DNA from: Bacteriovorax sp. BSW11_IV
GTDB taxonomy: Bacteria > Bdellovibrionota > Bacteriovoracia > Bacteriovoracales > Bacteriovoracaceae
Length of the DNA stretch: 64,000 nucleotides
Assembly: GCF_000447755.1 (NCBI RefSeq)
Contig: NZ_AUNE01000043.1
Coordinates: 1-64,000, forward strand
Direction: 5' to 3'
Shown: positions 4,823-52,874 of the stretch, one piece after another
How positions within the stretch are numbered: position 1 is the first letter of the stretch
Layout: each line of letters opens with the position of its first letter
The notes under the pieces: generated by a model
Told to the model about the DNA's origin: nothing
What the model saw: only the letters and a program-made list of their open reading frames with translations
The model's database searches: none
Translations under genes and position numbers: made by a program

Positions 4823-7800
4823 CTACTTACAATAAATATGGTGACCCCAACGATAGCCTTGGAAGAAATATCCTGTACCTGTGGCCCTATTATCATCAGC
4901 GTCATCGGCAGAGTCAATAATCGAGTAGGTACGTACAGAGTTTGGATCAAAGCCTGAATCCTCTCCAATAAAACCACCGTTATTTGGTTGAGGTGAGAAG
5001 TCTCCAAAAGTCGCCCCATTTCTTGTTTTCCCACCAGAGTCATCATCAGATGTCACACCCTTGTCACAGTAGGCCTCTCCAAGAGCGCGGATTTTTGTGT
5101 ACACTTCTTGAGACAGTTTTGGTTCACCCGTTTCCATAATGAAGTCAGTGTCTACAAGACCACCACCTGGAGCATCTTCACCAGTTCCATCACCTGAAAT
5201 AAAGCGGTTAAAGTAAACCATTAGATCTGTTCCACTTGGGATTTTACAAGTCATTTTTCCATTGTCATCAGTTGTGGCATGGTTTGAACAACAGCCACTA
5301 GAACTTGTTGTTTCTTCACCCAATTCAATACAGCACATGAAGTCTTTATTTGAGAAAATCGCCTGCTGATTAATTCCAGAATCATCAACAACTCTATTTA
5401 GAGGATTGATTGTGTCATTTGTTGCAGCACCGTTACTTGTGACAAGTTGTCCGTAAATTTGTGACATAGAATTTGGATTACTTGAAGTTGCGTTGTAATC
5501 AAATGAGTTTGCTTCAAAATTTGCTCTATCATCCCATGCAAAAAGACCAGGTACAAGATTTTGAGGATCATCGTTACAGTAAACCGGCTCGTAAACCATT
5601 TGCGGAATACCAGCTAGTTCAAAGCGTGAAAGTTTCGTTGCATAATAGAGATCGTTACCTGGATCAAATGGTGTATTGGCCGGTGTTTTTGTTCCCGCAC
5701 TTTCAGAAACTAATCTTCTGTATGGCTTAAATTCAACAATTAGACCTGCATATTGATAGGATTCAGGAATATCTCCCAGACCCTCAAGAGTGCCTGTATC
5801 ACCAGCGTTTGCGTGAAGAACAAGGTAACCACTTTTATTTTCAAGGCACCATTCTTTTTCAGCAAGGTGATCTTTCGCTCTTGTAACAATAGTACATGAA
5901 GGGATATTTTCGTTAAATGTGATCTCAGCGATTTCATTATTATTAGAGTTATAATATTTCGCTCTAACTGATGTTATGGCCGCTCTATCAGCGATATAAT
6001 TTGGTAAGTAAACGCTTAGATCGTAATCAAATTCACTGTCTTCAAAGTAATTGAAAATCTTATCTGGAGCAGAGCCTGTTCTATATGGAGTAGGCATGTA
6101 CAGAACATCAGAAGAAAGATTATCAAATTGTGTCTCAGGGCTTGTGTCCAAAGTCGCTAGTGCCGTTGCGGCATTGGCGACAACAGTAGGTGGACTCAAT
6201 TCAAAACCAGCGGCCTTGCGAAGAGGTGTTTGAACACAGGCACCATTTTCAGATGGATACAGACAAATTTTTCCATAGTCTTTTTGGTAGTTCAATGTGC
6301 TGGCACCTGGTAGTGGTTCCTTATACAATGTATTGTTGTAGTTTAGACATTGTAGTGATTCGACATTGATATTTAGTGCACGTTTTTTATTCCAATTATT
6401 TGTTCCATCGGCAAATTTACGAACCCATCCGCCACCGCAACAAGTTCTTTTTGCAGTATCATTAAAAGTCTTCCACTGAAAAGCATTTGGAACTTGATTC
6501 TGTGCCACTCTTGGCGCTGTTGCTATAGGTGTTGAACTTACTGGCGCAGCATTTGTTGGCGAGGCCACAGTATAGCGAGAATAGCGTCCATTGGCGGCCG
6601 TATTGTTATAAGGAAAGCTTGTTACATTTAGAATTTGATTATTTTCATTTCCATCTAAATGAGTTCCCTCTGTGTACATTGTGATTGTTTTACCAACTTC
6701 ACGGCAACAACGATTTTGTGTTAGATCCCACGAATTTGCTTCAGTTGAACCAAAGATTGGTTTTGGTTTTCCTTGACTACAAACGAGATCTTCACTCCAA
6801 AAGCGATACTCTGCTTCAGTATTTCCAAAGTCTGATTGCGCTAAAAATAGAGCAGAGTTCTTATGTACTTTATTTGGTGAACAGTCTAGGTCTGTATGAC
6901 AAACTGAACCGGCCCTTCTAAAACATGCATCCTTAGCAAATTTAACAGTTGTAAGCTCAGCTAATACTGGAAGCGCCCTGGCCTCAATATCATCAAAAGA
7001 TGAAAGTCCATTTGGTCTTACGGACTCTACACCACACATATTTTGTGAGTGTCTGTTGAGAATATCAGTTGCTGTTTGAGTCTTCACATAATTGCCATCA
7101 TCATCAAAGGCAGGACAAGTCTGCACGCGCGCAATAGGGTCTAAATTAGAGCTATTACATGAGGCGATCTGATTGATATAATCCGTTCTCTTAAGCAGGT
7201 CATTGCTTCTGTGTTGATCAGCTGGATCGAGGGCCAAGGCCTTACCTGGACGACAGAGTCCAAAATCTTGCGCTCCTGCACTTGCTGTATTTTTTCCAAA
7301 GAAGAGGGCAGCATTGTAAGTGATATTTGTAATGACTTTACTGTCAAGAATTCCATCACCAGTTCCACCAACATAACTACTTGGGCGACCTAGTACATCG
7401 GCCTCTTGTCCATAAAGAATATTTGAAAGTGAACTTGGTGCTCTGATCACTTCTTTATTAAAGTTGTTATCATTTAGTCCAGCACAGTAGAAGTTTGGTG
7501 CACAAGTGAAAAGCTTTTGTGTATTAGCATTTGTTAGGTCTGATGTTGGCGTCAGCTTACAAACTGAACCAGCACCTCTATAGACACATCTTTTCTTATT
7601 CGTCGTTTGAAAGCCGTCAAAGATAATGCTAGCAAACGTTGCATCTGCAGATTCATCGTTTAACTTTTCATCCGCACTTGTTGAAAACTTAGGCAAATAA
7701 GTTTTATAACTTCCAACATCGGCACACGTGTATTCCCAACCAAGTTGAGTCACGCAATCGGCATCAACATTACATTGGTGGAAACGCTGACAAGTGGCCC

Positions 7801-47667: not shown

Positions 47668-48465
47668 TTATTTTAGAAGTGTTTCAATCGCTTGGAACTC
47701 CGATTCAGCCGCGTATTCAAGCGCAGACTTGTTTTTAGAGTCTCTAATATTTTTATTTGCACCATTGGCCAACAGAAGTTTAACAATCTCCAAATGACCC
47801 TCTCTCGCAGCGTAGTGCAGGGCCGTTTGTCCATCGGCGTTTATAGCATTTATATCGGCCTTATACTCAACAAGATGTCTTGTAATATTGATATTTCCTT
47901 CAAAAGAAGAATCCATTAGGAGAGTGAACTTTTTAGAGTTAAAAATAATATTTGGATCAGCGCCTTTTTTTAAAAGTTCTAAAGTCATATCTTCATTGGC
48001 GCCACTGCTTGCAAAAACTAAGGCCGTTTGACCTGACTTATCTTTTATATTGGGGTCAGCTCCTTTAGAGAGAAGGTAAAAAAATAGGTCTGATGAATTA
48101 CCATTTATCGCACTCATGAGCAGCGTTTGGCCGTTCTCATTTTGACTGTTAATATCAAAACCATTTTCGATGGCCTCTTTTAACTTTTCACCATTTCCAT
48201 CAAAGGCCTCCTCGAAAAGTGACTTATCAATTTTATGCTCTTGTTGGATTGATTCGCTTATTTCAACTGTGTTGTCTTGATTTTGAGAGGCCTGTTCACT
48301 TACATTTGATTTTGTAACTTCATTTAAACTCGGGCGTGTTTGCCTTGTGTGCTGTGAGGGCATTGGGTTTTTTAATTGGGCCGATTGTCTGTACATTTGA
48401 AAAGTATAGACGCCCATTACGAGCGTCGATACTATAAAGATCATTTTGATTATTTTTATTTTCAT
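47668..48465 (-). CDS. Membrane-tethered or periplasmic ankyrin-repeat protein, candidate DacB immunity protein
   Basis: A 265-residue protein. An N-terminal hydrophobic helix (residues 4-22) acts as signal or anchor, followed by a Ser/Gln/Asn linker and about five ankyrin repeats from residue 85 to the end (NGQTLLMSAINGNS, SGQTALVFASSGAN, DGQTALHYAAREGH). It starts nine bases after the dacB-like gene. In Bdellovibrio bacteriovorus the ankyrin protein Bd3460 protects the predator from the adjacent DacB endopeptidase Bd3459; the same arrangement suggests the same job here. Confidence 0.85.
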   Translation of the reverse strand: MKIKIIKMIFIVSTLVMGVYTFQMYRQSAQLKNPMPSQHTRQTRPSLNEVTKSNVSEQASQNQDNTVEISESIQQEHKIDKSLFEEAFDGNGEKLKEAIENGFDINSQNENGQTLLMSAINGNSSDLFFYLLSKGADPNIKDKSGQTALVFASSGANEDMTLELLKKGADPNIIFNSKKFTLLMDSSFEGNINITRHLVEYKADINAINADGQTALHYAAREGHLEIVKLLLANGANKNIRDSKNKSALEYAAESEFQAIETLLK

Positions 48466-48474
48466 GAACCTATT

Positions 48475-49785
48475 TTACTGCAAAATTTGATCTGCAGGAA
48501 AAAAGTATTCTTTTTTATAGTCAAATTTTTTCGGTCCACCATTCGCATCAATAATCTCTGTTACGATCTCATTTTGAGCCATCTTTGCATTTCCTTTCCA
48601 ACCTTGAAGTTGGTGGAAAACACCAAAGTAAACATCTCCATTTTTTGTAGATACTTTACCAGCAAGGGCCGATGTATGAAAAAGCGTACCTGTTTTTGCT
48701 ACAATCGAGTTTGCTATTCTCGGAGTATTTAGGCGAGTTCTAAATGTCCCACCATCTGATCCTGGAACAGCTACGATTTCTTGAATTTTTCTATCGAGAT
48801 CCATCATTTTTTGATCAAGTCTCTTAATTAGCTTAACTACAATGGCACATGTCGCATAATTATCGAAACGCGCGCCATTTTTTACTGTATTTAGACCTGA
48901 ACCACTATTGATCACAATTGATGGTTCATTTGCAGAATATTCAAGACGCTCATTTTTGTAATCTGGAAAATCTTCTTCAACTATTGGATTAACATATTTT
49001 TCAAAGGCCTTAGTACCACCAAGTTTTTCAAAAACTTGGTCAGCAATGTAGTTGTTTGATTGAATGTTCATCAGTTTTAGATATTTTTCAATTTCCGGCG
49101 ATAGGTGAGTCATTTCCTTCACAGCACTTTGATCGTCTTTAAATGGATTTTCTTCGACGTAACGAATACTTTTAACTTTTAGTGAGATATCATCTAAGGA
49201 ATCTCTAATCTGAAGTGCATCAATCACACTTTTTGGAGTGGATTTGATAAAGGCCGTATAGGCCACTTTTAGTTTTTCCCACGCATCAGTGTTAAAGAAA
49301 TCTCTCAAATTTTGAGCTGTTCTTTCTGGTGAGATATTAAGAATACTTCCCGAATAACCTTCTGCTCCAGTGAAAATCTTAAGATTCTTATCAAATGTAA
49401 GATTGTTAATTTCTGTGATTCCCATATTGTTTAATTGGGAAATCAAAAAGAAAAGTTTCCTTGTACTGAAGATCGGATCTAAATCCCCTGCGATATGAAT
49501 ATCACCGTCTTTTTCAAAGAACTTCGTATCATACTTAAAGTCTGGTCCAATTTTTTCAACGGCCCACAAAGTGGTAAGCAGCTTAGTCACAGATGCAAGA
49601 CGAACTTTTCGATGCGGATTTAAACCGCCAATATTACCTTTGTCATCGAGAGTACATAGACCGTGGTACTTTGGTGTCAGATCATACGAGGCCATAATCT
49701 TTGTAAAATTAGCGACCGCATAGACTTGAGAATGAGACAGGATACTTAAAGCAACTGTCGAAATCATAAGTTTTAATTTCATCAT
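48475..49785 (-). CDS. PBP4/DacB-type D-Ala-D-Ala carboxypeptidase/endopeptidase (S13)
   Basis: A 436-residue secreted penicillin-binding protein with a signal peptide (ends near VYAVA). Catalytic motifs are Ser65-x-x-Lys68 in LASVTKLLTT, Ser243-Asn-Asn245 in IQSNNYIADQ and Lys364-Thr-Gly in VAKTGTLFHT. It is shorter than E. coli PBP4 (477 residues), consistent with loss of one insert domain as described for predator DacB. It cuts peptide cross-links in peptidoglycan, probably of prey. It lies between a secreted protease gene and the ankyrin gene. Confidence 0.92.
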   Translation of the reverse strand: MMKLKLMISTVALSILSHSQVYAVANFTKIMASYDLTPKYHGLCTLDDKGNIGGLNPHRKVRLASVTKLLTTLWAVEKIGPDFKYDTKFFEKDGDIHIAGDLDPIFSTRKLFFLISQLNNMGITEINNLTFDKNLKIFTGAEGYSGSILNISPERTAQNLRDFFNTDAWEKLKVAYTAFIKSTPKSVIDALQIRDSLDDISLKVKSIRYVEENPFKDDQSAVKEMTHLSPEIEKYLKLMNIQSNNYIADQVFEKLGGTKAFEKYVNPIVEEDFPDYKNERLEYSANEPSIVINSGSGLNTVKNGARFDNYATCAIVVKLIKRLDQKMMDLDRKIQEIVAVPGSDGGTFRTRLNTPRIANSIVAKTGTLFHTSALAGKVSTKNGDVYFGVFHQLQGWKGNAKMAQNEIVTEIIDANGGPKKFDYKKEYFFPADQILQ

Positions 49786-49815
49786 TTCCCCCCCAGAAAA
49801 TGAATTTCTCTTCTT

Positions 49816-50547
49816 TTAAATGAATTTTTCAATCCATGATAGATGGTCAGCAAGATTTACAAAGATTGAATTTGCTCTGCAAAAATCACCTTTATAATAC
49901 GCCGACGAGATTCCAACTAAATTTAATGATTCCCCTAAATCATTTTTAGTAAGAAGAGCTCCACCGCTATCAGCTCCATAAATAGCAGTATTTGTTGTAA
50001 TAATTTTTTTCGTGTTTTTATAACAACGTCTTTTAATTGGTACTTCTTTTATTGTTTTAGTGCGTAGGGCAGTGATGTTGTTTTCATCTTTACCGTGTCC
50101 TACAACTAAAAAAGTGCTTCGCTGCTTTTTTAATGCAGTTATTTTTGGATATTTACTTACGTTAAATTGATCGCCACTTTCCAATTTGATTATGGCAATA
50201 TCATTATCACTATAATTATCGAGACTATAATCAAATTCTGGATTGGTGATAATTTCAGCAATTTGTCTTGTCGTGCTGCCGTTACTGATTTCATCTGGAA
50301 GATAATTTTCGAAACAATGGGCCGCCGATAGGGCAGTGTCGTTATTTAAAAGAATCGCTGTGCAGATTGTTTGATTGTCTTGAAGAATTTTGGCCACGAA
50401 AGAGTATTCATCTTGGTCCACCTCTTCTCCATGAATGATTCCACTCACTGAGAATTCTACCTTTTCGCTAACGTTTCCGCGTCCACATGAACTTGCAATT
50501 ACAGCGAAGAAACAGGTGAAGATTATACTCTTTCGTAACCACATCAT
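49816..50547 (-). CDS. Trypsin-like serine protease (S1), lipoprotein or secreted
   Basis: A 243-residue S1 protease with an N-terminal signal that ends in IASSCGRG (Cys21, likely lipobox). The catalytic triad is His77 in LSAAHC, Asp116 in DNDIAIIKL and Ser194 in YGADSGGAL. The 25-residue stretch before GIIHGEE may be a short propeptide. It is 30 bases upstream of the DacB gene on the same strand. Predators secrete many such proteases during prey entry; a shared message with DacB and ankyrin is likely. Confidence 0.9.
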   Translation of the reverse strand: MMWLRKSIIFTCFFAVIASSCGRGNVSEKVEFSVSGIIHGEEVDQDEYSFVAKILQDNQTICTAILLNNDTALSAAHCFENYLPDEISNGSTTRQIAEIITNPEFDYSLDNYSDNDIAIIKLESGDQFNVSKYPKITALKKQRSTFLVVGHGKDENNITALRTKTIKEVPIKRRCYKNTKKIITTNTAIYGADSGGALLTKNDLGESLNLVGISSAYYKGDFCRANSIFVNLADHLSWIEKFI

Positions 50548-51559: not shown

Positions 51560-51689
51560 TGTCCACCTCTAACCCATTGTAAACGAAGTTAATAAAGATT
51601 TCATAAAAAAATGGCCACCAAAAATTATAAAGAAGGGGAAATATTTTCCGATTGGTTTCTTGAAACAATACAAAACAAGAGAGAAAACC

Positions 51690-52874
51690 ATGAAGAAGTA
51701 TTTGATCGTTTTACTCGCAAGCTTATTCTTTGCAGATCAAGCGATGAGTATGGGGCTGTTTAGATCACGCCAAACGGGATCATCATCAAATTCAGGTGCA
51801 AATACAACACCCACACCAACACCTTCTGAACCAAATAGAGAGCCTGCAAGTCCTGTAGAGCCTCAATACGATACACCGGCCCTAGATTCTACTTATATGA
51901 ATGAAGAGGTTGCAGAATTTATTAATGCCGAAGTTGAGTCTCAATTTGGGAGTGCCGAGTTACTTAAAGTAAGGGATGGTAGCTTTAATACATCAAGTGA
52001 TCATTGCTCAAATGCTCTTGATGGAAAAGATCGCTTTGTCGATCAAATTTCTTTTTATGTTTCTGAGCAATTGCTTAATATTCGTCCCGAGGTAGCACAT
52101 CTTTCATCTTATTATGCTGTACCAAGCTCGCGCGATAAACATGCATTAACAGGACTAGCACATTTTCCTTTATGCCACTCAACAAAAAGTTCATTAACGA
52201 CATCGCTTAAAAAAGTTCCAGGTTCAGATGTTATTGAGATGCTCAATGAATTTGAAGATAAAGTAAATGGCCTTAGAGATGATATGCTAGCAGGAGATGA
52301 AGTGGCCAAGCTTGATCTAGTGAAAACATGGTCAAAATTTATGGGCTGTTTATCTTATGTTGAGTCGTTAACTACGGCCGATGCATCTTCATCTGTGAAA
52401 GTAGCAGGAAAGTATGCTCCTTCAAATTATAGAAAGCCTGCTGGTGTAAAATTTTATGAAGATCCCTATCAGCCAGCGGAGAGTAAATTGAATATCGGTC
52501 TCTACCAATTCACTCCGCGATACACAGGAAATATTGGAGCATGTTTAAAACATTGGAACCAAATGTATCCTCAATGTCCTGTAAATGAAAAAGCATCCCA
52601 ATCAGATCTCATTAGAATGTTTGGTAGCTCACACCAAGGAATGAATGCCTTTTGTGGTGTAAATAAAGTGGCGCAAACATTCGCTATTCAGGTAAACACA
52701 ACGGCTTCAAAATCTACTCACCCTAGTAATAGATCATCTTCAGGTTTAGTGCCTGCGGCACAAAGATGTGTCACTCCGTTCATATATGCAGGTTATGCAT
52801 ATAATCACTTTGGCCCTCTTCAAAATTCAACAGGTGCGAATCTTAAGAAACTTATGAGTTGCGTTCTTAAATAA
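51690..52874 (+). CDS. Secreted protein of unknown function
   Basis: A 394-residue protein with a signal peptide (MKKYLIVLLASLFFADQAMS), a Ser/Thr/Pro-rich linker of about 45 residues and a cysteine-bearing domain (DHCSNAL, FPLCHS, FMGCLSY, GACLKHW, YPQCPVNEK, MSCVLK). The segment around TWSKFMGCLSYVESLTTADAS resembles a lysozyme-like helix turn, but no catalytic residues can be assigned. The inner ATG is preferred to a TTG at 51660 because of the signal peptide. A terminator follows. Confidence 0.8.
   Translation: MKKYLIVLLASLFFADQAMSMGLFRSRQTGSSSNSGANTTPTPTPSEPNREPASPVEPQYDTPALDSTYMNEEVAEFINAEVESQFGSAELLKVRDGSFNTSSDHCSNALDGKDRFVDQISFYVSEQLLNIRPEVAHLSSYYAVPSSRDKHALTGLAHFPLCHSTKSSLTTSLKKVPGSDVIEMLNEFEDKVNGLRDDMLAGDEVAKLDLVKTWSKFMGCLSYVESLTTADASSSVKVAGKYAPSNYRKPAGVKFYEDPYQPAESKLNIGLYQFTPRYTGNIGACLKHWNQMYPQCPVNEKASQSDLIRMFGSSHQGMNAFCGVNKVAQTFAIQVNTTASKSTHPSNRSSSGLVPAAQRCVTPFIYAGYAYNHFGPLQNSTGANLKKLMSCVLK

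Follow-up and report, generated by a model that had tools for sequence, protein, structure and literature searches.

The window analysed here, a stretch of 64,000 nucleotides from Bacteriovorax sp. BSW11_IV, carries three adjacent genes that the ORF map places on the minus strand in the transcription order S1 protease, DacB-like enzyme, ankyrin protein. The S1 protease gene (49816-50547, minus strand; 243 aa; Pfam Trypsin, 6e-20), the DacB-like gene (48475-49785, minus strand; 436 aa; Pfam Peptidase_S13, 1e-24) and the ankyrin gene (47668-48465, minus strand; 265 aa; Pfam Ank_2, 7e-33) all begin with ATG, and the Pfam matches of the three proteins exceed the curated cut-offs. The original prediction had described three genes on one strand, 30 and 9 bases apart, and the ORF coordinates agree exactly: 30 bases (49786-49815) lie between the S1 protease and DacB-like genes, while 9 bases (48466-48474, minus strand) separate the TAA stop codon of the DacB-like gene from the ankyrin gene, which follows in frame. 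By inspection, G-rich ribosome-binding sites were found ahead of the S1 protease and DacB-like starts, and only a weak AGG ahead of the ankyrin start. Since this start lies 9 bases past the preceding stop codon and has only the weak AGG, translational coupling of the ankyrin gene to the DacB-like gene is plausible from the sequence. Promoter and terminator scans of the locus revealed no clear excess over shuffled sequences, and a search of plasmid records found no relative.

When compared to PDB sequences, the DacB-like protein matched Bd3459 (2e-45) and Bd0816 (3e-43) best, with E. coli PBP4 far behind (1e-4). The catalytic motifs SXXK, SXN and KTG are present as S65-V-T-K68, S243-N-N245 and K364-T-G366 and are invariant in the alignment, and the N-terminus reads by inspection as a Sec signal that ends between VYA and VA. 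When aligned to the housekeeping S13 enzymes encoded by the same genome and by HD100, the protein proved to be devoid of the domain III insertion and to keep the C-terminal extension ('staple'), two features that characterise predatory enzymes according to Lerner et al. (PMC3276566). A tree of 70 rows, with two long-branched housekeeping genes as the root, places the window enzyme with Bd3459/Bd0816, apart from housekeeping PBP4; within this group it clusters with its sister species (G001) and the Halobacteriovorax genus (g3). The split between Bd3459 and Bd0816 falls within the Bdellovibrio part of the same tree, and the window enzyme is therefore co-orthologous to both. The enzyme part of an AlphaFold2 model aligned to Bd3459 residues 38-438 (5cec_A; Z 43.6, rmsd 2.2 over 374 residues), with a Z of 27.6 against E. 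coli PBP4. Taken together, sequence, motifs, tree and modelled fold make it a well supported assignment that this protein belongs to the Bd3459/Bd0816 type of DD-endopeptidase (peptidase S13, PBP4-like), with its activity being predicted.

We also considered that the DacB-like protein may be a housekeeping PBP4 acting on the cell's own wall, with the ankyrin protein an ordinary regulator unrelated to predation. Its membership of the S13 family would fit such a role, as would its match to the NCBIfam PBP4 model, though this falls below the cut-off. However, the only further S13 gene of the genome lies on contig C8; it is of the conventional housekeeping type and carries an extra insertion that the alignment shows to be missing from the window enzyme; the tree keeps the window enzyme with Bd3459/Bd0816 and not with the housekeeping genes, and its fold is far nearer to Bd3459 than to E. 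coli PBP4. A housekeeping function thus appears very improbable, and we retain the Bd3459/Bd0816-type assignment below.

The ankyrin protein is 34% identical to Bd3460 over 183 aa (the window enzyme and Bd3459 share 30%), with two gap positions, and is collinear with it over all six repeats; Bd3460 is also its best match within the B. bacteriovorus HD100 genome, whose proteins agree with the Bd3459 sequence of 5cec and with the beginning of Bd3460 as defined by the published primer. Six helix pairs in the AlphaFold2 model correspond to six ankyrin repeats at about residues 80-265, and the alignment places one extra residue in the AR3-AR4 turn. The ankyrin part of the model matched 5cea_E with a Z of 22.9 (rmsd 2.4 over 187), a score that generic ankyrins equal or surpass. 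The remaining ankyrin proteins of this genome sit at separate loci. Sequence, gene order and modelled fold argue for a Bd3460-type inhibitor, and we regard this identification as well supported, the inhibition itself being a prediction.

Across the genomes compared, an ankyrin gene lies directly after the enzyme gene in 32, from Bdellovibrio to Halobacteriovorax, and such recurrence across two classes indicates that the adjacency is not due to chance. Another 39 examined loci, including those of the two housekeeping genes, have no adjacent ankyrin gene, and the presence of the ankyrin neighbour tracks the enzyme tree, with 6 changes as compared to 23 when labels were shuffled. The 9-base in-frame gap is common to the window, the sister species and five genomes of the Halobacteriovorax genus. 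MarC flanks the pair in G003, G012 and other genomes of the Halobacteriovorax genus, as it does in the window, but the S1 gene is missing from the stretch between MarC and DacB. In G097, a tyrosine-phosphatase-like gene (L117:5494-6072) lies between the DacB and ankyrin genes.

That the DacB-ankyrin order represents the local version of Bd3459/Bd3460, as had been proposed, is thus borne out by sequence, gene order, tree and fold. Like the pair of B. bacteriovorus HD100 (3v39, 5cea, 5cec; PMC4686830, PMC3276566), the window locus has the enzyme gene followed by the ankyrin gene after a short gap, an S13 enzyme without domain III, six collinear repeats and one housekeeping S13 gene elsewhere in the genome. 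It differs in having the S1 gene in front and in the number of predatory DacB enzymes, which is one in this genome and two in HD100. Bacteriovorax (Halobacteriovorax) marinus resembles the window genome in having a single predatory DacB (Bms2102) and a single housekeeping S13 (Bms2612) (PMC3276566). Synteny of the pair has been described as common to other periplasmic predators (PMC4686830), and the pair, its mechanism and its occurrence in such predators are already published (PMC4686830, PMC3276566); by orthology, the self-protection pair that is best characterised among predatory bacteria is common to the Bdellovibrio and Halobacteriovorax sides.

The enzyme was also found in the Bacteriovorax-like g14 clade, in which it is kept with no adjacent ankyrin gene, and a search of five g14 genomes detected no clear Bd3460 ortholog at other loci. 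The inhibitor is therefore not obligatory for owning the enzyme, and g14 represents a sister group in which the enzyme occurs with no inhibitor that could be recognised. At the g14 loci L075, L076 and L078 a 3D-domain gene follows the Bd3459-type enzyme, and at those tested for it (L075 and L078) a YkuD L,D-transpeptidase gene lies ahead of the enzyme.

We modelled the DacB-like enzyme and the ankyrin protein together with AlphaFold2 as a single read-through chain, in which the two in-frame genes were joined by reading the stop codon as Gly, using an alignment of 14 paired and 18 single rows. The resulting fusion of 705 residues displayed a mean pLDDT of 88.5 and a pTM of 0.84. The ordered parts of the chain amount to ~600 residues in total, and we estimate that the enzyme alone would be expected to give a pTM of about 0.6; a value of 0.84 over these residues thus implies that the ankyrin domain is confidently placed against the enzyme, in support of binding. 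The docking that the original prediction had called for is therefore confidently predicted in this single read-through chain, with an interface between enzyme and ankyrin domain. An equivalent S1-DacB fusion reached a pTM of 0.64, with only DacB folded and S1, represented by only two sequences, unfolded. This value fits the expectation for the enzyme alone, a weak control since S1 was unfolded, and for the same reason the S1-DacB read-through was rejected as a test of contact, on which it is uninformative. S1 homologs added to its alignment fell wrongly onto DacB, and that alignment was dropped.

The ankyrin protein starts with MKIKIIKMIFIVSTLVMGVYTFQMYRQSA and has a hydrophobic segment at about residues 5-22, and all of its candidate cleavage sites fall inside the hydrophobic core, the best lying between VMG and VY. 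Residues 28-77 (~50 residues) form a disordered linker before the first repeat, with pLDDT < 50 in the model; this low-confidence stretch was used in place of linker lengths from an uncertain alignment, which were dropped. Given the presence of an N-terminal export or anchor segment, retention of the protein in the cytoplasm, which would have counted against a self-protective role, appears unlikely. As judged from the N-terminus, export is likely, whilst cleavage of the signal is doubtful. Here the protein contrasts with Bd3460, a difference that the original prediction had overlooked: Bd3460 and most Bdellovibrio orthologs have a signal peptide whose cleavage site is good (e.g. after AFA) and lies just ahead of the repeats, whereas the window protein has the extra disordered stretch of ~50 residues and no convincing cleavage site. 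Ankyrin proteins of the Halobacteriovorax genus share with the window protein an anchor-like N-terminus and a long linker; in four of five there is no candidate site in the tested range, and residue 31 is the only candidate in the fifth. Our N-terminal survey also indicates that the ankyrin proteins of other relatives could be cleaved.

We posit that in Halobacteriovorax and its neighbours an uncleaved segment and a flexible leash of ~50 residues may hold the ankyrin inhibitor at the predator's inner membrane, instead of its being soluble in the periplasm, a proposal that we consider evenly balanced between true and false. By a crude cleavage-site score, Bdellovibrionia and Bacteriovoracia could not be told apart (p = 0.05), so the suggested tether is a working hypothesis that draws on individual sequences. 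If true, the enzyme would be free to leave and the inhibitor would not, and retention would be explained by construction. A membrane tether would thereby address the retention question raised by Lambert et al., 'retain Bd3460 and differentially secrete' (PMC4686830), and anchor plus leash would constitute a second inhibitor architecture, one that lets retention be tested directly. In the part of the literature that we searched, we found no Bd3460 ortholog described as anchored in the membrane.

We propose that the locus serves a Halobacteriovorax-like predator as an invasion operon. At entry, the Sec-exported DacB-like DD-endopeptidase would cut 3-4 peptide cross-links in the wall of the prey. 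The ankyrin protein, whose synthesis follows directly on that of the enzyme, would face the predator periplasm and bind the enzyme over its active-site side, keeping it inactive until it leaves the predator; in this lineage the inhibitor may, with about equal chances either way, stay in the inner membrane on its flexible leash. We infer enzyme activity, inhibition, the face that is bound, timing and the role in predation from the Bdellovibrio orthologs (PMC4686830, PMC3276566), and the predatory lifestyle of this organism from that of its relatives. Taken as a whole, an explanation in which a prey-wall DD-endopeptidase is paired with an ankyrin self-protection inhibitor, with the S1 protease outside the pair, is in our view very probable. 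The initial proposal of prey-wall attack with self-protection is hence partly supported: the DacB-ankyrin pair is upheld by sequence, gene order, tree, fold and docking, but the S1 protease as a member is not.

The S1 protease has a His77/Asp116/Ser194 triad, conserved with the sister species, and its Pfam Trypsin match spans the full profile; the N-terminus, MWLRKSIIFTCFFAVIASSC-GRGN, reads by inspection as a lipoprotein signal. The original prediction had seen in it a further partner or client of the pair. As a third component, S1 would be co-exported at invasion and would cleave or strip the ankyrin inhibitor, for example at the linker, to yield active DacB, or it would be a client guarded by the ankyrin protein. 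Such a role would agree with its position on the same strand at a gap of 30 bases, with the arrangement and triad being kept in the sister species, and with the long disordered ankyrin linker, a plausible target for a protease. However, the S1 gene is ahead of the pair at only 2 of the 32 DacB-ankyrin loci, those of the window genome and of the sister species, and is missing from the other 30, all five Halobacteriovorax-genus genomes included, which argues that the pair works without it. Moreover, a search of 115 genomes of the family found no clear S1 ortholog outside the genus, where the best match had an E value of 4e-21 and the rest were weaker, and the 21 trypsin-family matches in the window genome make chance recruitment easy. 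Docking lends no support either, given the unfolded S1 in the fusion. S1 was rejected as a conserved partner on the basis of its presence at 2 of 32 loci, and its participation as a third component seems improbable.

We favour instead a two-component pair of enzyme and inhibitor, beside which the S1 gene is probably co-transcribed and, having been retained by two species of the genus, probably functional. Its product is probably a genus-specific envelope or predatory hydrolase that takes no part in the working of the pair, as nothing ties it to the mechanism. The part of the literature searched yielded no description of an S1 gene at this locus.

Further ankyrin loci were observed in the window genome. 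On contig C4, an ankyrin-repeat lipoprotein is encoded 56 bases downstream of MltG/YceG (L169:4096-4797 and L169:4854-5888, both minus strand). MltG followed by an ankyrin gene also occurs in the sister species and in none of the other 28 loci checked, and it is possible that this constitutes a second pairing of a peptidoglycan enzyme with an ankyrin protein, restricted to this genus. Bd1180/Bd1181, an ankyrin protein and an LD-transpeptidase described as a predicted pair (PMC4686830), likewise combines an ankyrin gene with a peptidoglycan enzyme but differs in enzyme class, and the function there is only predicted. On contig C45, the gene for an ankyrin protein whose N-terminus is signal-like is one gene away from that of a papain-family protease (L167:3918-4568 and 5509-6345). 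Within the window itself, a secreted-looking protein of 404 aa with no Pfam match (51660-52874, plus strand) adjoins MarC, and similarity of start and position identifies a counterpart beside MarC in Halobacteriovorax-genus genomes.
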